The notes under the pieces are model-generated. The model was not told where the DNA came from. It did not search any database and was given only the letters and a program-made list of their open reading frames with translations. From a candidate division KSB1 bacterium (GTDB lineage Bacteria > Zhuqueibacterota > Zhuqueibacteria > Residuimicrobiales > Krinioviventaceae), in the NCBI GenBank assembly GCA_034521575.1, contig JAXHMJ010000002.1, positions 466,706-530,705 on the forward strand: a DNA stretch of 64,000 bases. The letters are read 5' to 3'. Position numbers and translations under genes: made by a program. Below, piece by piece: positions 3,345 through 52,900 of this stretch. Every line of letters begins with the position of its first letter. Positions within the stretch are counted from its first letter, which is position 1.

Positions 3345-4827
3345 GATAATAGGTTTCGATTTCGTCTTCGGTCAAACGTGTCAATTCGTCAACGGGCAAA
3401 CTACGGAGCGCTTCCCAGCCGAGCTCAAGGGTCTCTTCTATGCTGCGGTCCTCATTGATGCCCTGGGTAATAAATTTTTCTTCAAAGATTTTGCCGAATT
3501 CAAGGTACTGAGTGTCCAGAGGCGTCAGTTCTTCTTCGCCGATAACCGAGGCCAGATTACGCACATCTTTGACATAGCTGTATGCGGCAAACAGCTGGCT
3601 GGCCAGATGCGGATGATCTTCCCGGGTCATGTCTTTGCCGATGCCGTCTTTCATCAAACGCGACAGGGAAGGGAGTCCGGCGACCGGCGGAAATATCCCG
3701 CGCGAGTTCATCTCGCGGTCAAACACGATCTGTCCCTCTGTGATATAGCCGGTGAGATCCGGGATCGGATGCGAAATATCATCATTGGGCATGGTCAGAA
3801 TCGGCAGCTGTGTGATCGAGCCTTTGGAGCTTTTCAGCATTCCGGACCGCTCGTAAAGCTCTGCCAGATCCGAATACAGGTAGCCGGGATAGCCTTTACG
3901 CGACGGTATTTCACCGCGTATCGTCGAGATCTCGCGCAGCGATTCGCAATAATTGGCCATGTCAGTCAAAATGACGAGCACGTGCATATCTTTTTCAAAG
4001 GCCAGATACTCTGCCAGTGTGAGCGCGCTTCGCGGTGTGATCAGCCGCTCGATGGAGGGTTCATCCGCGAGGGATAAGAACAGCGCGACTTTGCTGGACA
4101 CGCCGGATTCTTCGAATGAGCGGATAAAATAATTGGCCACATCGTGTTTCACACCCATAGCGGCGAAAATAATGGCAAATTCGGATTCGGTGCCGCGTAT
4201 TTTGGCCTGCCGGGTGATCTGCGCGGCAAGCTCGTTATGAGGCAGACCGTTTCCGGAAAAGATAGGAAGTTTCTGACCGCGTATCAGCGTGTTCATGCCG
4301 TCGATCACTGATAATCCGGTCTGGATAAAATCGCGCGGGTATTCGCGAGCCGTCGGATTGATGGCTTTGCCGTTCACATTGTAATAGTTTTCAGCCCGTG
4401 GGGCGGGGCCGCCGTCCAGTGGATGTCCCAGACCGTTGAAAACCCGGCCGAGCATTTTTTCCGAAACGCCCAGTTGATGCGCCTGCCCCTTGAAACGCAG
4501 ACGCGTATTCGGCAGGGTGAGAGACGCAGTGCCTTCGAACAGCTGAACCACAACCACATCCGCCGATGTGTCCAGGACGATTCCCAGACGCACAGCGCCG
4601 GAGGGATCGATACATTCAACGAGTTCCCGGAATCCGATAGGATGCGTGTTTTTGATGAACAACAGCGGTCCGTCCACTTTGTTGATTCCGACATATTCTT
4701 TGCCGCTTTTCAGTTGTTCAATCAGATTTGACGACAATGATGAGGAATCCGCTGCTTTAGGTTTTCCTTCGGTAATCTGTGTATCTTTTGTTTTATCGTT
4801 ATTCAAAAATAGCCTCCAACTGGTCAA
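3337..4827 (-). CDS. atpB: V-type ATP synthase subunit B (non-catalytic)
   Basis: The 496-aa protein is the non-catalytic nucleotide-binding subunit of the head. After about 35 N-terminal residues it has the beta-barrel domain, then the RecA-like domain with [20 protein letters not shown] in place of a Walker A loop, as expected for B subunits. [15 protein letters not shown] and the conserved [20 protein letters not shown] follow. The C-terminal helical domain ends DEIETYYHV. It overlaps subunit A by 29 bases and subunit D by 8. Confidence 0.95.
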
Positions 4828-6599
4828 AAGAACGTCCCAGACGCGTCATCAGTTTATCAAATTCCGAGACATCCTCATTGGAAATTGAAAATTTCATTTT
4901 TACAATATCCTGATAGACCTTCATTTGTCGAAGTTTCACCAGGGTGATGCCGCTTTTAATCGCTTTTTGGCCGCGATAATAATAATGCAGAATAAGTTCA
5001 AGCATTTTATACTGTTTTTCGATGGTTGAGAACCGGTCCGTTTCGTCAAAGGCATTTTGCTGCAGAAACGCGTTTTTGAACAGTCTGCACACATCAATAA
5101 TAAAGCGTTGTGAATCGGGAAGCGCGTCCGGGCCCACAAGCTTGACCACCTGGTTGAGCCGGACTTCCCGCTGCAAGAGATCCATTATATCTTTGCGGTA
5201 TTTGCTCCATTCTGTTCCTGCATGCTGTTCCCACCAGGCTGCGATATCCGTCAGGTATTCGCTGTAGCTTTCCAGCCATGAGATGGCGGGATAATGGCGT
5301 GCATTGGCGAGCTGACGGTCCAGACTCCAAAAGCAGCGCACAAATCGTTTGGTGTGCTGAGTGACCGGTTCGGAAAAGTCGCCGCCCGGCGGCAAAACTG
5401 CGCCAATCAGGGTAACGGAGCCGTTTTTACCGCTCAGGGTTTCCATATATCCGGCGCGTTCGTAAAATTCAGCGACACGCGTCGGCAGATAGGCGGGAAA
5501 GCCTTCTTCGGCCGGCATTTCTTCCATACGTCCGGATAATTCGCGCAAGGCTTCCGCCCAGCGGGATGTGGAATCCGCCATCACCGCCACATGATAACCC
5601 TGGTCGCGGATATATTCGGCAAGGGTGACACCGGTATAGATGCTGGCTTCGCGGGCGGAGACCGGCATATTCGATGTATTGGCAATCAGAATGGTGCGTT
5701 CCATCAGGCTTTTGCCGGTACGCGGATCGATGAGGCTCGGGAAAGTCATTCAGGACATCGGTCATTTCATTGCCGCGCTCGCCGCAGCCGATGTACACGA
5801 TAATATCGGCGTCGCACCATTTGGCCACAGCGTGCTGGGTAATGGTTTTCCCGGTTCCGAAACCTCCGGGGATGGCCACGGTACCGCCTTTGGCGATGGG
5901 AAACAGCGTATCAATAACCCGCTGGCCGGTAACGAGCGGTGTGTTCAGAGGCGCACGCGCGCTGACCGGCCGGCCGCGGCGTATGGGCCATTTCTGCGAC
6001 ATGCGCACGGGAATAACCGAATCTTGCGTTTTAATTTCGGCAATGGTGTCCTCAACTGTATATTCACCCCTGGAGACAATACGTTCAAGTGTTCCCTGGA
6101 CAAACGGGGGAACAAGAATACGATGCTTGAACAATTCCGTCTCCTGGACGCTGCCAATGATCATGCCGCCGTGAACATCATCTCCTTTCGAGACCTCGGG
6201 TTCAAATAACCATTTCTTTTCATGATCGATTGGGGGGGATGATATGCCGCGGTCCAGAAAATCACCGCTGATATCGAGCAGCGCGGACAAGGGGCGCAGA
6301 ATACCGTCATAGATCGTCCCGACCAGTCCGGGACCCAGTTCCGGAGATAATAATGCGCCGCTGCCGTAAACCGGCTCGCCGGGTTTGACCCCGGTGGTAT
6401 CCTCATAAACCTGCACAATGGCTCTGTCGTTTTCCAGTTTTACAATTTCGCCGGTTAATTGATGGCTGCCGACTGCTACCAGTTCCAGCATCATGGCGTC
6501 TGTTATGCCGGTGACTTCAATAACCGGGCCATTGACTCTGAAAACAAATCCGATAATGCGTTCTTGTTTATCACTGCTGTCCGGCGTATATTTATTCAT
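4799..6599 (-). pseudogene. atpA: V-type ATP synthase subunit A (catalytic), single-base frameshift
   Basis: This is the catalytic subunit that hydrolyses or makes ATP. The first part (from 6599) has the N-terminal barrel, the subunit-A-specific bulge domain (HGGMIIGSVQETELFKHRI) and Walker A GGFGTGKT. The rest (reading to 4799) continues with [35 protein letters not shown] and the C-terminal domain. The two parts are in different frames. On the minus strand the codons after VLNDF read TTT-CCC-GAG, whereas TTT-CCG-AGC restores the family sequence, so one extra C (GGG at 5739-5741 on the plus strand) breaks the gene. Restored length is about 600 aa, normal for the family. Since the rest of the operon is intact, a sequencing error is as likely as a mutation. 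Confidence 0.93.
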
Positions 6600-11496: not shown

Positions 11497-11748
11497 ACTT
11501 TACCTGCATGTTTGAACGCATTTTATAAGAACGGGGCACTATAAAATTCAGTTTGCTGGACAAGTCTTTTGCCGAACCGGTTGATTTGAACTGTAAATCT
11601 GCAGACAAATATTGAGTCTAAAAAATTGAAGCAATAAAATAGCTATTAATGACCCGAAAGTCAAGAAAAAATAAAGTGCAGCAGACGAATGCAATGCCAT
11701 TCATCAAACAGACAGGTGGGAAAGGGTGAGTTTGGTGGCTGGGACCTG

Positions 11749-13929
11749 TTATGAATCAAATGAGGTAAAATGAATGTTGCTTGGAGGATTGTTTAGCAAT
11801 TTTTTATAGTATCTTTTACGTTGTTTGAACATGTTTTCAAAGTAATCAATCTTTGAATCACGATAATCAAAAATAACGGGTGGTTTTCCAGAGCGTTGAA
11901 TTCTGCCAATATACTGGATGAGTTTACCCTCAAATGCAAAGGGATAAACAATAAAAAGACAATCAAGATTATTGATATCAATACCTTCTCCAAAAAATTG
12001 CCCTGTTGAGATTACTATTTTATAATGCCCTTGCTTTATCTGTTCTAGTTTGTTTTTTCTAGCGGTTTCCGAGTCACCGCCATGAATGGTTATCGTTTCA
12101 TATTTTTCTTTCAAGTACAGGTTTAAAATATCTACATGAGCCTTTCGCTCCGTCAATATCAAAATGGTTTTGAAGCGTTCTGCGTTGTTATCAATATCTT
12201 TAATGATCAGAGAATTCCTATGTGTGTCATGTACAAGTATACGAGAAATTGTTTCATATTTATCAGTTTTATAATTGAAAGGAACAAATAGTTCCGTTTC
12301 TCTTATATTAAGTTCGGTTTGAATTTTATTCTTGGCGAGAAACTCGTATTGTTTTACATGATAAAGAATATCGCCAATAAAAACAAAAATCAATTTCTGA
12401 TCATTGTGTTTTCTTTTGGGCGTTGCTGTCAACCCATACAAATAATAAGAATTGAAATGAACAATGGTTTCCCTAAAGGATTTGGCGGGTATGTGATGAC
12501 ATTCATCAATGATAATTGTCCCAAAAGCACTGGCCAACTTTGTATAATCTGTCATTCTTGACAGGGTTTGAATCATTGCAACCGTAATTGACTTTCCGAT
12601 TTTATTTTTTTGATTGCCTATTTGCCCAATATCTTTTTTGGGGATTTTTAAAAAGTCTTGGATTCGTTCAATCCATTGGTCGAATAATTGTTTTCTATGG
12701 ACAATAATCAAGGCCGGCTGTTGTTTTTCGGCGATGAGCGCTAATCCAATCACAGTTTTCCCGGAACCCGGCGGTGAAACAATAACACCAAAATCCTTTT
12801 CTCGTGTTTTTTCAAGTGCCAGCTCCTGATGACTTTCAAGTTCAATTTCCGAACCAAAATCAATGTAAATTTTTTTCTCTCGTTTGTCTATTATCTTTAA
12901 TGGTATGTTCTCATCTTTGCAAAATTGGATTAATTCGGAAGAAAAACCCCGGGGAATCATTACTTTATTATCTGATTCCTGAATGAGTTTAAAAAATTTT
13001 TCTGTATTAAACGTGCTTTTTCCGAGCTTTCTTTTAATTAAAAAATCAGCGTTGTAAAAGTTTAATTCCTCTCTAAGGAATGTAATCAATTTATGATTTA
13101 ACTCAGCTTTGTGAAGATATACCTGATTGCTGATAATTATTTCCAGTTTTTCAGACCCTTCTGTATTTGGGCTTATCATAAACATGCTGTGGTAGGGTTG
13201 TTTAAATAAACTATTATAGATATCTCTAAACTGTTGTTCGGGAATTTTTTTGATTGTTTTAAGAAATTCCCATTGATTCTCCAAGGGTTTGAATGTTTCT
13301 GGATTTAAAAAACATGAATTTCCGTGTTTTAACGATTTTCCTTGTAAGGGAAGAGCTATCAAATTGCCCATGCCTTTACCCGAATGGTAATTTTGATTGG
13401 GAAACACGCGGTCAAAACTGGGCTCTTTATCAAACTGGGAGATTATTTTAGATCTTTTCAGTATTTCAAAGATAATTTTACGACTGCTTTCAGCGGGAAA
13501 TGACTTTTGAAAAAATATCCATAAATGTCCTCCATTCCCTGAACGGGATCGTTCTATATAGCATGGAATATTGTATGTGTTGCATGTGCGGTAAAGTTGA
13601 AGAATAGTTTTTTGCCAATTTTGATTGTCAAAATCCACGGCAATAAAAAATGATGTGTTATCTTGTAAAAGCGGGTAAATTCCACAACATTTTTCACCTG
13701 CAAGATGCGATGCAATAGCACTGTTGTCTACTGGTAAAAGTTTTTTGTTTTTATAATTTTTGAATGTTCCCCCTTTTGCCTTGTGGATTTTATACAATGA
13801 CCAATCGACCTTATATGCGGGCATATACCCACTGTAGCCATTTTTTTCCCATCGAATAGCATATATATCTGTTCTTCCTTTGAACAATGACCGATAGAGT
13901 TGAATATTTTTTGGGGAAATGATCATCAT
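11749..13929 (-). CDS. Primase-helicase (TOTE-type AEP primase domain + superfamily 2 helicase)
   Basis: The 726-aa protein joins two enzymes. Residues about 1-260 form an archaeo-eukaryotic primase-like domain: the catalytic pair is in FIAVDFDNQ, the following conserved histidine in GNGGHLWIFF, and the strand GMGNLIALPLQGKS is typical of TOTE-conflict-system primases. Residues about 365-720 form a DEAD/DEAH-like helicase: Walker A SPPGSGKT, motif II DECHHIP, motif III TATPKR and motif VI QYIGRIQRSGK. Such fusions are known from predicted bacterial conflict (defence) systems. It stands alone, facing away from the sigma-factor gene, and is AT-richer than the ATPase operon, which hints at transfer. 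The start could be either of two adjacent ATGs. Confidence 0.85.
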   Translation of the reverse strand: MMIISPKNIQLYRSLFKGRTDIYAIRWEKNGYSGYMPAYKVDWSLYKIHKAKGGTFKNYKNKKLLPVDNSAIASHLAGEKCCGIYPLLQDNTSFFIAVDFDNQNWQKTILQLYRTCNTYNIPCYIERSRSGNGGHLWIFFQKSFPAESSRKIIFEILKRSKIISQFDKEPSFDRVFPNQNYHSGKGMGNLIALPLQGKSLKHGNSCFLNPETFKPLENQWEFLKTIKKIPEQQFRDIYNSLFKQPYHSMFMISPNTEGSEKLEIIISNQVYLHKAELNHKLITFLREELNFYNADFLIKRKLGKSTFNTEKFFKLIQESDNKVMIPRGFSSELIQFCKDENIPLKIIDKREKKIYIDFGSEIELESHQELALEKTREKDFGVIVSPPGSGKTVIGLALIAEKQQPALIIVHRKQLFDQWIERIQDFLKIPKKDIGQIGNQKNKIGKSITVAMIQTLSRMTDYTKLASAFGTIIIDECHHIPAKSFRETIVHFNSYYLYGLTATPKRKHNDQKLIFVFIGDILYHVKQYEFLAKNKIQTELNIRETELFVPFNYKTDKYETISRILVHDTHRNSLIIKDIDNNAERFKTILILTERKAHVDILNLYLKEKYETITIHGGDSETARKNKLEQIKQGHYKIVISTGQFFGEGIDINNLDCLFIVYPFAFEGKLIQYIGRIQRSGKPPVIFDYRDSKIDYFENMFKQRKRYYKKLLNNPPSNIHFTSFDS

Positions 13930-14323
13930 GATTCATCTGAAACATACTTTAAAGATGTGAATAGGTTGCTATTTGAGGATTTTATTATTACCGAGCTGGT
14001 CGTTTCTTAGAAAAATAAATAACCTTTTGGGATTATAATAGATTGTTATTATTTTAATTAAGAAAAAATCAACTAAAATCAATCCACGCACCAGGTGATA
14101 ATAATATGAAAAAAAAACCAATTCAAAGCAAGGATAAATCTCAAAAAACGAGGTCACGACGGACAAAAATGAGCGGGCGCGGCGGCCTGTTTTTTGTTCT
14201 GGGTTAAAATCGCTCTATTTAGAATAAAACAGCAATTCATGATAAAAATGTAATGATAATCGAGCAAGTTTTTGCTACATTTCGGGTCTTGTATACGGGT
14301 ATTTATAAAATAAAAAAACGGAA
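13930..14323. other. Intergenic region, no gene seen
   Basis: AT-rich divergent spacer between the primase-helicase and the sigma-factor gene. It should hold both promoters. No reliable ORF, repeat or RNA was recognised. Confidence 0.5.
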
Positions 14324-17604: not shown

Positions 17605-18913
17605 CAGTAACGTCCGGTTAGGTTTTTGCACGTAAGTAATTTCGTCGATTTTTTCGATGAGATTTTCTACGATTTTTCTTGTCGGAATCTCGCACTTCAT
17701 TTTGAATTTGAATACGGAGTTCTCGCACTCTTTCGATGTTAACTTTTTCGTTATAATTTTCATGACAATAGATTGCCAGTAGCAAATATGTAATGAGGCC
17801 GCCGAGAATTTGAACCATAAGTCCGTACTGACTTCGAGCTATGAGATGATAGACTTTGAGATGGCGTTTCCACCAAGCGAAGAAATTTTCAATTTCCCAA
17901 CGAAGTTTGTATGCCTGAGCAACATCTTCTGCAGAGAGGTCATAACGATTTGTCGCGATCCAGTATTTTACATTGCCGATTTTATAACCGACAAGTCGTA
18001 TCGACTTTTTTGTTTGATTGGTGCCCGGCGTCCCCAATAAAACTATAGCATCATAAAAAACAATGCTTTCTGGTTTTATGTCATGTGCATAAAGACATTT
18101 TTTTCGTCGATGCTTTGATGCGGCAGAAAAATTGACGACCGTCCTCCTGCCATTGGTCAAAGCGTTTATGGCATTGATAGCCCCGATCAAGAACGCCGGA
18201 CTGGTCAGAAGAGAGTATTTGATCGACAAATGGTCGTTCACCGGCTAAACCGCCTGTGAGATATAGTTTTGTTGGAATGGACCGATTAATATCAAAACCG
18301 AGATGAACTTTTGCCTTTTTAGAGCCGTTTCTATAATCAGCCCAAGTCATTGAAAGAACAGCATCAATCAAAGAACCGTCGATGGCAACAAGCTCCCCCA
18401 AATGTTCAAATTGCTTTGGGATAGTGGTCGCAGCTTTGGCTTGAAGTTCATTAAAAACAACAGCTAGTTGTTCGAGGCCGCGATTGTTGATAGCCTCAAA
18501 AAAGCTACTTTTTTTGATTCCTTCTTTCGGGGCAATATGCTCCCGAGCAAATGTATCTTCTTGAAGAACCTGGACAAGATGAGTCCCTGATTCATGCTCT
18601 TCAAGATGATAAAACACGAGGGCATTGAGTTGATCTTCAAATGTCATTTGCAGAGGTCGATCTCCTCGTGAAACTAATGGTGGTACCTTGGACAAGATAG
18701 CCTTGATCGGTTCCATTAGTCTTTTGAATGTTTTAGATTTTTGTCGAGGCTTAAACTTTTTGAATTTACGTCGCATTTCCATAACACCTTATATTTATTA
18801 ATGTTATGAAAATCGACTTCAAAATTTTTGACGTAATGTCAAGTGTTTTTTTGTGTTATGTCATATTTTTTTGTATAATCTGAGCGTTGCAATTACCTAA
18901 CCGGACGTTACTG
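17605..18913 (-). mobile_element. Complete IS4-like insertion sequence (1309 bp) with 9-bp target duplication
   Basis: The element is bounded by perfect inverted repeats of 19 bp that begin CAGTAACGTCCGG. The host sequence AGACGGACT occurs immediately outside both ends (17596-17604 and 18914-18922), a 9-bp target-site duplication typical of IS4 relatives. It carries one transposase gene on the minus strand and interrupts the adaptor gene near its 3' end. Perfect ends and duplication point to a recent insertion. Confidence 0.93.
17618..18782 (-). pseudogene. IS4-like DDE transposase, frameshifted in a 7-A run
   Basis: The N-terminal part (18081-18782) contains the first aspartate in VAIDGSLIDA and the second in GVLDRGYQCH. 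The C-terminal part (17618 to about 18100) holds the YREK-type signature Y-x2-R-x3-E-x6-K in YKLRWEIENFFAWWK. The parts join at seven consecutive adenines (plus-strand T run 18098-18104); one A fewer would give a single frame of about 385 aa. The stop codon lies within the terminal inverted repeat. It is either inactive, expressed through slippage on the A run, or a sequencing indel. Confidence 0.88.
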
Positions 18914-45717: not shown

Positions 45718-46680
45718 TCAATTACCGACTTGATCCGGCATATCAATGCGCAGAATCGTAGATGGCTTGTCCTTTTTTACATGATTGATATAATAATATC
45801 CGCCGCCTGCAGCCGCAACTCCGAGAGCCCACCAGTACCATTTTACGGATTTCAATCCGATTTTTTTAGGGTCCACCGGCTGCATACTGATCCGTCCTCT
45901 GAGCCGCCGTCCGGCCTTGACGCTAATCTGGCCGGTTCTTGGTTCATAGCCGCGATGAGTAATCTGGTATTCAAAATCACCGGGCGGAAGATCGGCGAAC
46001 GTATGACTGCCGTCTGCGGTAAAGGTTCGTCCGGTTGTATGTGTTAACAGGATAGAAGCGTCCGGAGGTGTGACCGCAATGTCAACCACGGCCTTTTCTG
46101 AGCGTGCCTGCAGACCGAGACGCACCAGGGCGTGGTTGAGGTCAACGGATACGACTGTATCCGTGATTGCGTATCCCGGTTTTGCCGCTGAAATGCGGTG
46201 CATACCGGGAACGAGCAGGTGCTGGAGTTCAGCGCTGGCAGGTCCGCCATCAATGCGAATTGCAGCGCCTTGCGGTTCTGTGAGAATGGTCACCGGAATG
46301 GGATCTTTTTTCTCATCACCCGTGATTTGAATTTCCCAGACAGCTTTGCTTTGCAATCGGATACCGGCATCATACAATATGATCTTTTTCGGTCTGAATC
46401 CTGTGTAATAAATTTCCAGCACCCGTTCATTCGGTGACAAGTAGACCATATCCTGGCCCGGCAGATCATCGACTCGCACGATACCATTGTATGACGTATA
46501 CCGGAGTCCGTCAAGATCAGAAATGACTTTAATCGCCGCGCATAGTCTTCCGTTCACATCGCGTACACCGACAAACTCATTTTCAGAAAACACGGGTTCA
46601 CCAACCAGACGCAATTCCGGAATATCTTGAGCAATTGCGGAAATTGCAAAAAGCAGTGTCATCCATATCAAACGTTGCAT
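45718..46680 (-). CDS. PEGA-domain protein with C-terminal membrane helix
   Basis: The 320-aa protein has a signal peptide (RLIWMTLLFAISAIAQ) and two PEGA-like beta repeats in the second half (VTILTEPQGAAIRIDGGPA; VDIAVTPPDASILL, with PPGDFEYQITHRGYEP). A membrane helix near residues 287-303 (WWALGVAAAGGGYYYI) is followed by a short charged tail. PEGA domains are extracytoplasmic, found in surface-layer-like or envelope proteins. It is cotranscribed with the FISUMP lipoprotein and may help present it. Confidence 0.85.
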   Translation of the reverse strand: MQRLIWMTLLFAISAIAQDIPELRLVGEPVFSENEFVGVRDVNGRLCAAIKVISDLDGLRYTSYNGIVRVDDLPGQDMVYLSPNERVLEIYYTGFRPKKIILYDAGIRLQSKAVWEIQITGDEKKDPIPVTILTEPQGAAIRIDGGPASAELQHLLVPGMHRISAAKPGYAITDTVVSVDLNHALVRLGLQARSEKAVVDIAVTPPDASILLTHTTGRTFTADGSHTFADLPPGDFEYQITHRGYEPRTGQISVKAGRRLRGRISMQPVDPKKIGLKSVKWYWWALGVAAAGGGYYYINHVKKDKPSTILRIDMPDQVGN

Positions 46681-47011: not shown

Positions 47012-47093
47012 TCCAACGGGGTGAACCGCCGGATGCGGACCCGCATGTCCGGTGGTGTGGGGAGGACCGGAGAGAATTCGGCACTTACCCGAT
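47012..47093 (+). ncRNA. Group II intron 3' fragment (domain V/VI-like)
   Basis: The segment 47023-47058 folds into a hairpin of arms 47025-47037 and 47042-47056 with a 4-base loop and a 2-base bulge on the 3' side, the shape of domain V. The flanking GGGGTGAACCGCCGG and TGGTGTGGGGAGGACC follow the pattern seen at the 3' end of bacterial group II introns, with a plausible 3' end near 47092. No reverse transcriptase is present, so only a fragment remains. The rest of the 46681-47186 spacer shows nothing I can name. Confidence 0.5.
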
Positions 47094-49778: not shown

Positions 49779-50888
49779 TCAAACTTGATTAAATAATTCT
49801 GGTTGTGCTGGAATAGAATCCTTTAAAAAATAATATGTTTTTCGTTTTGCTGATTTTGAATCAATAAATGATAAATTTGAGAGCAGTTTTTGAAGATTTT
49901 TCTGGTCAATTTCAATATCTAATCTTTCATTTATTGCCTTTGCTGTCAAATGACCTTTGGATAATATTTGTTTTAGTTTTTCTTCTATATTATTTTCAAT
50001 TGACTCAATGGGATTTCCAAATGTGTCTACCGGGATAGCGCCCTGTAAAATTAACATATTATTTGCATTTTTTTCATTTGGGTCTGGTTTACGAATAAAT
50101 ATTTTTCGACCTTTTTTTAAACCACTCATTACACCATTCCATGTGCCACCTTTAGTATCCGATTCCGCAACATAAATCGTTTTTGCAAGGCCATAAATAA
50201 AAGTATTTCTATTCATTGCCAGGCCAACGGACCATGGCGCTTTTGGATGATACGTGCTTAAAATTAACACATCACCATTGATTATTTTTTTATAGTATTT
50301 CTTAATACCGCTGCCAAATGTTAATATACCCTGGGGAAGAACAATAATACTGTGCCCATTAAACTCTAATGTTGCATCAAGAGCCATTTTATCAACACCT
50401 TTTGCAAAACCGCTAACCACTACTTTATAATTTTCTGCACATTGTTTTGCAATCGTTTTTGTAAACTCTAATGAAATTTCGGACGCTTTTCTCGAACCTA
50501 CTATAGCAATGGATTCTTCATTCAAGAGCTTTGTATTACCTTTTACATATAATAATGGGGGCGAAGCTTTTCTTTTCAAGTTTTGTTTCAGTGTTTCTGA
50601 ATAGTCTTTAGAGTTTATGGGAATGAGCTGGAAACCCTGTTCTAACAAGTTTTCAGCAAGGAAAGAATAGTTGGGCAGTTCTGACTTTACTTTTTGAATA
50701 TCAGCTATTTGATTATCAGAAAGACGAAATTTAGCTTTTAAATCTTTTTCATCTAAAGCAAAAAACTCTTGAAATGATAATTTTTTTGTAACAAGGATAT
50801 CTATGATTAGCTGGTTTATTTTTTCATTTCCCCATTTTGGAAGATGACTTAGAGCCATCCAATATGGATATTTGCTTTCTATATTCAT
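49779..50888 (-). CDS. DprA/Smf-like protein (SLOG-type Rossmann domain)
   Basis: The 369-aa protein has an N-terminal helical region (residues 1-90), then the DprA Rossmann core: PPLLYVKGNTKLL, SIAIVGSRKAS, VVSGFAKGVDKMALDATLE, SIIVLPQGI and GGTWNGVMSGLKKGR. A small C-terminal winged-helix-like part (KGHLTAKAINERLDIEIDQKNL) follows. Classical DprA loads RecA on incoming single strands. This copy differs by its operon: its ATG overlaps the stop of a RecQ-PRTase gene by 4 bases, which points to a shared role in a DNA-processing or defence system rather than in competence. Confidence 0.88.
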   Translation of the reverse strand: MNIESKYPYWMALSHLPKWGNEKINQLIIDILVTKKLSFQEFFALDEKDLKAKFRLSDNQIADIQKVKSELPNYSFLAENLLEQGFQLIPINSKDYSETLKQNLKRKASPPLLYVKGNTKLLNEESIAIVGSRKASEISLEFTKTIAKQCAENYKVVVSGFAKGVDKMALDATLEFNGHSIIVLPQGILTFGSGIKKYYKKIINGDVLILSTYHPKAPWSVGLAMNRNTFIYGLAKTIYVAESDTKGGTWNGVMSGLKKGRKIFIRKPDPNEKNANNMLILQGAIPVDTFGNPIESIENNIEEKLKQILSKGHLTAKAINERLDIEIDQKNLQKLLSNLSFIDSKSAKRKTYYFLKDSIPAQPELFNQV

Positions 50889-52900
50889 GCTATATCACCA
50901 CCGACTGTTTTTGCAATGACTAATGGCGCAACCAATGCTGCACCTGATGTTGTTAAATATTTTCCAATTTCTTTAATCGTTGCACCGCTATCAAAGATAT
51001 CATCAATGACCAATATTTTTTTACCATTCATATCATCAATGGATTCATAGGAAAAAGCATGATTTACGTTGTCCCGTTTGAGCACGGAATTCGTAAATAC
51101 CTTTTGTGGTTTTGTAGCTCGCGTTTTCTTTAAATTATGGGAAATGGGAATTTTTAGCACTTTGGATACTTTTTCTGCAAAATTTTTCACCAGATCACCT
51201 GACTCTGTTGGTGGAATATAAAGAATAAAATCGAATTTTTCACTACCAAATTTAAATCGAAAAGCCCGCAGCGTTTGTTTTAACAAGTGATCAGGAAAAT
51301 CACCCCCATTTTCGTATTTACAACGATGAATTGTTGAACCGATATTTGAAACACCATAATAGGAGGCTGCAACACCATTTATAATATTAGATGATTTGCT
51401 TTCAAACGGTAATTCGGGGAAATAAGAATTTCTAAATGAGTGTATCTTTGATCGCCAAAAATTGTTAATACTTACTTTATGTGTTATATTTCGATCGTTA
51501 TCACATTTTCCACACGTTACAACACTGTAATCACCTAAATACTTGCACAAATATTCCATCCTGCAAGTTCCTGAGCGAATATATTCGAACATTTGCTCAA
51601 GTTCATGAAACTTGAACTTTCGCAATTCTTCAAATGGTTTGGTGTCCAAATCAGGAGCGTTGAACTGATATTCATATTTATTCCTTTTGCTGTATAATAC
51701 TTTTCGGATAATCCTTTGATCCATCAAATCTGCTTTTATGACTCTGATTTGAGTTTGGGTCAGATTGGTTTTTCTCATCAAATCCCACTCGCCAAGCGGT
51801 TCTTCCTTTAAAGCATCAATAACACGTTGATATTTTTTTAATGATGGCCTGCTGTTTTTAATGAAATGTGTTGGAAGTTTCAAATCTTCAGGGCTATAAA
51901 GCAGAAATAATTGTGTTGGTTTCCCATCCCGACCAGCTCGTCCAATTTCCTGATAATAATGAATGAGTGATTGTGGAATTTGGGTGTGAATAATAAATCG
52001 AATATCCGGCTTATCAATACCCATGCCCAGAGCATTTGTAGAAACTACACATTTCCAACGATTTGATTGTAGCCCTTTTTCTATTTCATTTCTCGAAATA
52101 GCATCCAGGCCAGCATTATAGTTTATTGCTTCGATATGATTAAATTGTAACCAGGCGGAAAATGTTTCAGTTGTAACCCGAGTGCCCGTATAAATTAGCC
52201 CATTTCCTTTAACTTTCAACAGAAAATCAGCCAGCCAGACCATTTTTTCATCTTTATCATTTACAATAACAACATTTATCGAAAAATTATCACGTAACAA
52301 ATTTCCACGGATTAGAGTAACATTTTTACCCATTTGCTTCATTATGTCTTTCGCAACACGATTTGTAGCAGTAGCCGTGGTGGCTAATACAGGGAAATTT
52401 TGGGGTAATAAATTTACCAGATTTATGATTCTTCGAAATGCAGGACGGAAATCATGACCCCACACCGAAATACAATGTGCTTCATCAATAACGATTATTG
52501 ATATATCAAAACTGCGAACAGCATCAAGCCATTCCTGGTTGTCTTGTCTCTCAGGTGCGATGTAAAGGATTTTAAGTTGATTGCTTTTTGCTTTTGCTAA
52601 AATTCTATTATTATCTTCCGGCTTTTGCTCGCTGTTTATACATGCTGCTTTGATACCAATAGATTTTAAATAATTTACCTGATCTCGCATAAGAGCTATT
52701 AATGGTGAGAAAATGACAGTTAATCCTTTGAATTGGGTGGCGGGAAATTGATAGCATAATGATTTGCCATAACCTGTTTTTTCAATTAGCAACAATCGTT
52801 CACCATTTAAGATTCTTGAGATCGTAGCCCATTGATCATCATAAAATTTGTCAAAATTGAATATGCGTTTTAATCTACTTTCGGCTTCAGTTCTTGTCAT
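50885..52900 (-). CDS. RecQ-type helicase fused to a phosphoribosyltransferase domain
   Basis: The 671-aa protein opens with a RecQ helicase (about residues 1-350): Walker A EKTGYGKSLCYQFP, motif II VIDEAHCISVWGHDFRP, motif III ATTATAT and motif VI YYQEIGRAGRDGKP. The RecQ zinc-binding cysteines follow (GTCRMEYLCKYLGDYSVVTCGKCDN, near 450). Instead of the HRDC domain, residues about 500-670 form a type-I phosphoribosyltransferase with the PRPP loop ILVIDDIFDSGATIKEIG. It is the first gene of the cassette and overlaps the DprA-like gene by 4 bases. Confidence 0.9.
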   Translation of the reverse strand: MTRTEAESRLKRIFNFDKFYDDQWATISRILNGERLLLIEKTGYGKSLCYQFPATQFKGLTVIFSPLIALMRDQVNYLKSIGIKAACINSEQKPEDNNRILAKAKSNQLKILYIAPERQDNQEWLDAVRSFDISIIVIDEAHCISVWGHDFRPAFRRIINLVNLLPQNFPVLATTATATNRVAKDIMKQMGKNVTLIRGNLLRDNFSINVVIVNDKDEKMVWLADFLLKVKGNGLIYTGTRVTTETFSAWLQFNHIEAINYNAGLDAISRNEIEKGLQSNRWKCVVSTNALGMGIDKPDIRFIIHTQIPQSLIHYYQEIGRAGRDGKPTQLFLLYSPEDLKLPTHFIKNSRPSLKKYQRVIDALKEEPLGEWDLMRKTNLTQTQIRVIKADLMDQRIIRKVLYSKRNKYEYQFNAPDLDTKPFEELRKFKFHELEQMFEYIRSGTCRMEYLCKYLGDYSVVTCGKCDNDRNITHKVSINNFWRSKIHSFRNSYFPELPFESKSSNIINGVAASYYGVSNIGSTIHRCKYENGGDFPDHLLKQTLRAFRFKFGSEKFDFILYIPPTESGDLVKNFAEKVSKVLKIPISHNLKKTRATKPQKVFTNSVLKRDNVNHAFSYESIDDMNGKKILVIDDIFDSGATIKEIGKYLTTSGAALVAPLVIAKTVGGDIA

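Follow-up and report, generated by a model that had tools for sequence, protein, structure and literature searches.

A TOTE-type primase-helicase gene, probably gained by horizontal transfer, in a candidate division KSB1 bacterium

Known Prim-Pol-helicases and the architecture of the gene

Prim-Pol enzymes, which carry an archaeo-eukaryotic primase (AEP) domain, are defined by three motifs, hhhDhD/E (I), sxH (II) and hD/E (III) (PMC10345425). Among the CAPP enzymes, those of class A type 3, named CAPP-Helicase, combine the Prim-Pol with a helicase (Zabrady et al. 2021, PMC8211822). The same study described Prim-Pol-helicases as the commonest form among the non-CRISPR homologs, typically in mobile elements, and reported priming, polymerisation and strand displacement by CAPP enzymes in vitro (PMC8211822). 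In Thermus thermophilus, a Prim-Pol and a helicase (Ppol-Hel) are likewise encoded together in a mobile element, ICETh2 (PMC7693054), as separate genes and with a different helicase, unlike the fusion described here. Loss of the ICETh2 Prim-Pol raised transformation, which was first read as the loss of a DNA-uptake barrier (PMC7693054). All such Thermus mutants had lost addAB function through secondary mutations, and genome maintenance was argued instead (PMC9751324); as a precedent for defence, ICETh2 is therefore ambiguous. The nearest described family is AEP-TOTE (PF22548), which has the same AEP domain and the same order, AEP followed by a superfamily 2 (SF2) helicase. The TOTE assignment was made here through the Pfam model and through the RefSeq name of the Escherichia coli copies, "TOTE conflict system archaeo-eukaryotic primase domain-containing protein."

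We analyzed a stretch of 64,000 nucleotides, referred to as the window, which belongs to a chromosome-sized contig of a candidate division KSB1 bacterium. The gene under study is one unbroken open reading frame (ORF) of 726 aa that runs from position 13929 to position 11749. Its borders agree exactly with the initial annotation, which gave no strand. The coding strand is the minus one; read on the plus strand, this interval is interrupted by many stops. The features of the locus, in window coordinates, are as follows.

11749..13929, minus strand: TOTE-type primase-helicase gene P0001 (single ORF and Pfam)
13198..13914, minus strand: archaeo-eukaryotic primase (Prim-Pol) domain, residues about 6-244 (PF22548, CAPP fold, invariant residues)
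12874..13155, minus strand: XPB/UvsW-type N-terminal DNA-binding region, residues about 259-352 (alignment to XPB and to UvsW 1rif)
11788..12873, minus strand: SF2 helicase core of XPB type, residues about 353-714 (ResIII, Helicase_C, XPB fold, invariance)
11497..11748, no strand: gap of 252 bp to the V-type ATPase operon, with no remnant of an AlbA_2 partner
13930..14323, no strand: A+T-rich gap of 394 bp to a divergent ECF sigma factor gene, presumably containing the promoter of the primase-helicase gene

Pfam detected AEP-TOTE over residues 8-235 (280 bits, 2e-83; curated cut-off, 27), ResIII over residues 362-506 (8e-31) and Helicase_C over residues 582-681 (3e-12). This analysis confirmed that a TOTE-type AEP domain and an SF2 helicase are joined in one gene, as initially proposed. 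The VDFD and GGHLW motifs cited in that proposal were also present: motif I is AVDFD (residues 97-101, with the acids in D99-F-D101), and motif II is SGNGGHLW (S130-G-N-G-G-H135-L-W137, with GGH at 133-135). Motif III was assigned to FD (172-173, acid D173). The helicase motifs comprise a Walker A (G388-x-GKT392), DECHH (475-479), TAT (501-503) and QYIGR (672-676). Across 36 aligned homologs, the invariant residues were D99-F-D101, S130-G131-G133-H135 and D173 in the Prim-Pol half and, in the helicase half, G388, G390, K391 and T392 of the Walker A, the whole of DECHH, T501-A502, Q672-Y673 and G675-R676. Judged by these residues, both catalytic sites are complete. D173 is the least certain of the three Prim-Pol motif assignments, because aligning this stretch to CAPP takes a gap of one residue and the structural model is weaker over residues 170-190 or so.

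That model, built with AlphaFold2 from 36 sequences, had a mean pLDDT of 82.7, with lower values around residues 170-190. Comparison of the N-terminal part with AEP structures, which had been suggested as a check, gave the CAPP Prim-Pol (7nqd) as the nearest structure (Z 24.4, root mean square deviation of 2.5 Å over 194 residues; Foldseek TMt 0.83), and this part of the model thus has the AEP fold. Besides the shared order of Prim-Pol and helicase, there were differences from CAPP. The window protein scored 95.4 bits on the CAPP model of NCBIfam (NF040561), below the cut-off of 200. The best match in PADLOC was the CRISPR-associated "PrimPol" model (212 bits). Reading the window ORFs by eye, we saw no cas genes and, beside the gene itself, none that was Cas1-like; the only Cas1 match in the genome was a 93-aa frame on another contig. 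On these observations, a role as a CRISPR adaptation protein was rejected for the window copy.

Residues 259-714 matched both T4 UvsW and archaeal XPB, the latter with a Z of about 25 and beginning at its first residues; XPB aligned from its residue 0 onward, and UvsW (1rif) aligned from model residue 260. Because the match begins at the start of XPB, residues 259-352 are interpreted as the N-terminal DNA-binding domain of XPB and UvsW, and the helicase half thus aligns along the whole of XPB. According to the model, the protein is a Prim-Pol fused to an entire XPB-like helicase; the pTM of 0.59 is modest, so the model does not fix how the two halves are placed relative to each other. The protein differs from XPB itself in this fusion and in its score on the XPB model of NCBIfam (NF045503; 88.8 bits, below the cut-off of 610). 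After helicase motif III it reads TATPKRKHND, at the position where the RED motif lies in XPB. The best helicase matches, XPB, UvsW and RadD, are all repair enzymes, and the whole XPB form is present, N-terminal DNA-binding domain included. These matches would fit a host factor for DNA repair or replication restart, whose helicase would find stalled or damaged forks and whose Prim-Pol would reprime beyond them. There are other Prim-Pols that reprime forks or help to keep the genome stable (PMC9751324). We regard this role as possible, with a probability well short of even, for reasons given with the distribution and neighbours below.

Distribution and origin

The gene was found in 8 of 82 genomes of the phylum, its own genome included, and within the order only in its own genome (1 of 22). 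Two relatives hold remnants: a copy with stops in G038 and, in G043, a frame of 91-99 aa that joins the start of the gene to its end. Conservation at one locus across the phylum, as of a housekeeping gene, was named in the initial annotation as an observation that would refute its proposal; it was not what we observed. In relatives G007, G013 and G015, other genes lie upstream of the V-ATPase operon. Both this and the presence in only 8 of 82 genomes rule out a housekeeping or V-ATPase-linked gene. Because the operon has other upstream genes in relatives, its proximity to the window gene is incidental. We noted separately that subunit A of the V-type ATPase (4799-6599, minus strand) is split into two overlapping frames of 376 and 316 aa, whereas it forms one frame of about 599 aa in G007 and G015; the split is a frameshift, either genomic or made by the assembly.

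Identity to the closest copies known is 74%, and most of these come from Bacteroidota metagenome assemblies. In two trees, the window copy fell inside a clade of 12 rows, mostly Bacteroidota, with SH-aLRT support of 99-100. Vertical inheritance together with the only close copy of the same class, that of G046, was tried as an alternative; this clade was rejected by the AU test (p-AU 1.8e-74). The trees leave the exact donor open, because they are quick trees with some long branches. G+C content drops from 0.43-0.47 to 0.34 across the gene, and when codon use was compared inside the window, GC3 was 0.31 against a mean of 0.51, the third lowest of the 30 window genes. The patchy presence, the Bacteroidota clade, the rejected same-class clade and the low GC3 together provide good support for gain by horizontal transfer, and the gene is probably foreign.

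Other parts of the window also deserve mention. The two genes of lower GC3 are PsyrA and PsyrT, a defence pair 36 kb away. This PsyrTA anti-phage toxin-antitoxin pair (49779-52900, minus strand) comprises a RecQ-type helicase with a phosphoribosyltransferase end (PsyrT, 889 bits) and a DprA-like protein (PsyrA, 265 bits). In a MacAB-type efflux operon, a two-frame transposase (17618-18782; 233 and 207 aa) lies at the end of the membrane-fusion protein gene, which the insertion seems to have truncated. Between the genes at 46680 and 48475, Rfam matched a group II intron (47024-47093, plus strand; 47.6 bits, cut-off 40).

Mobile elements and neighbours of homologs

Full-length single-gene copies of the AEP-helicase were collected from 44 genome loci and 91 plasmid records; among the plasmid matches listed, the best were 31-34% identical. 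The initial annotation had stressed that the gene stands alone next to an ATPase operon. Both observations are correct, the operon beginning 252 bp downstream, yet a single AEP-helicase gene is the usual form in the family, so standing alone is no special feature, and the operon is an incidental neighbour. Extra nuclease domains, said to be frequent in known examples, were not seen in the homologs. The only large extension was C-terminal, about 400 aa long and carried by Chitinophagaceae-type copies (L059, L060, L062, L064, L069, L070 and L071); Pfam scans of two examples gave no match for it. In relatives from the same order as the window genome, an AEP-TOTE-like part occurs within longer genes of 924-977 aa (L085, L086, L087, L088 and L089); four of the five adjoin Cas1/Cas2-like genes, L086 being too short to tell. 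From their sequences, these are apparently reverse transcriptase-Prim-Pol fusions of CRISPR systems, a different type.

Of 5426 E. coli genomes, 868 gave a match to a close copy of the gene found in this species, and in 681 the match spanned 80% or more of that copy. All six whole-copy E. coli records inspected showed an apparent integrative element in which an inovirus Gp2 gene is followed by the TOTE-type gene. Each of these elements also contained a gene for YfjI or DUF3987 and a regulator of the AlpA or helix-turn-helix type. A tyrosine integrase was present in four of these six stretches. In M11 and M19, the anti-phage pair ShosT and ShosA comes next after the TOTE-type gene (M11 was scanned; M19 was assigned by identical protein accessions). 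Moreover, nine predicted viral contigs matched over the full length or most of the gene, and in one of them (L114) a gene judged from its sequence to be AlbA_2-like precedes the primase-helicase.

These results agree with the placement of the family among conflict systems in mobile DNA, as far as the homologs in plasmids and integrative elements are concerned. The window copy, on its chromosome-sized contig, has the low G+C content, and no mobile-element or defence gene was seen at its borders. A search of both flanking gaps for remnants of the homologs' neighbour genes gave no credible match; the best (78 aa, 3e-4) was to a gene that lies beside the L035 copy and was not seen again near other members of the TOTE-type family. 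Primase-helicase fusions replicate plasmids and phages, and homologs reside on plasmids and in integrative elements, as would be expected of an initiator primase-helicase left behind after its mobile element had decayed. We consider such an origin of the window copy improbable. The E. coli elements carry separate YfjI/DUF3987 and Gp2 genes and therefore seem already equipped for replication, no integrase, relaxase or origin-like feature was seen beside the window copy, and some copies stand alone on chromosomes beside ordinary genes.

Downstream partners were counted at the 40 of 44 genome loci with at least 250 bp of downstream sequence. A gene with SLFN_AlbA_2 and HATPase_c_4 domains lay directly downstream in 12 of the 40. 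In 10 of the 40, the partner was a gene of about 442 aa, intact or cut by the contig end, at a distance of -8 to +4 bp; in the other two, L039 and L066, this partner was present but broken. L067 has a different AlbA_2 gene, 1 bp downstream and only 23% identical to the first kind. A narrow literature search found no earlier mention of this pairing, which we do not claim as new. The window copy has no such partner, the 252-bp gap to the V-ATPase operon being free of any remnant, and a search of the rest of the genome for the partner gave nothing closer than a distant 206-aa frame on another contig. In L039 and L066 the AlbA_2 partner is broken while the primase-helicase is whole. Taken with the pseudogenes and deletion remnants in relatives, these two loci raise the prospect that the window gene is a decaying, functionless orphan whose partner was lost. 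This is the least probable of the explanations that we weighed: the window ORF is intact, it has kept all invariant residues at 74% identity to its nearest known relatives, and many copies show no partner.

We then compared genes near the primase-helicase with genes far from it. Among the families listed for the 142 neighbours no more than three genes away, AlbA_2 occurred 12 times, AbiEii 6, RhuM 4, HSDR_N 4, YhcG nuclease 2 and Fic 2. None of these six was among the families listed for 123 genes more than 4 kb away at the same loci, which include some restriction and TIR genes; a few genes are common to both sets. Each list names 25 families, a length at which one far match could be hidden. 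A HipA gene was also recorded beside TOTE-type copies. With one far match allowed for, the excess of AlbA_2 gave a p of 0.003 and that of AbiEii was weak (p 0.09); these values are rough, because the tests assume independent genes and related loci violate that assumption. The defence neighbours are an association only. For a host repair factor, such mobile and defence neighbours would be unusual, as would the patchy presence, frequent loss and foreign composition of the gene.

Proposed function

The window gene is an ordinary member of a known, widespread family and not a new system. On balance, the analysis favors, by a modest degree of confidence, an intact, horizontally acquired, single-gene TOTE-type Prim-Pol/XPB-like helicase that most likely serves as anti-invader cargo. 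Defence is preferred because of the company that the family keeps, namely mobile elements and defence-gene neighbours. According to our model, the XPB-like half would load on irregular DNA, such as forks, ends and bubbles, and would spend ATP to open the DNA or to move along it. The Prim-Pol half would then start and extend new DNA on the exposed single strand, probably with a purine start, as in CAPP. The most likely targets would be replication or entry intermediates of invading DNA, and the primase-helicase would be carried as cargo for this anti-invader function. The AlbA_2/HATPase partner, which shares the operon in many Bacteroidota, may regulate the primase-helicase; the window copy would have to act without this partner in cis. 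Repriming of stalled forks, which would use the same biochemistry, is our second choice.

A more specific version of the anti-invader proposal is speculative, and we rate it as unlikely. In it, the protein would be an immune device on its own: the XPB-type domain would find and open irregular invading DNA, and priming would block or mark that DNA. The AlbA_2, AbiE and RhuM partners found elsewhere would then be optional regulators.

Roughly every sixth E. coli genome has a member of the TOTE-type family, as do many Bacteroidota, and we found no open paper that tests the primase-helicases of this family. The recurrent AlbA_2/HATPase partner, together with the AbiE, RhuM, HipA and restriction neighbours, makes the conflict hypothesis testable.
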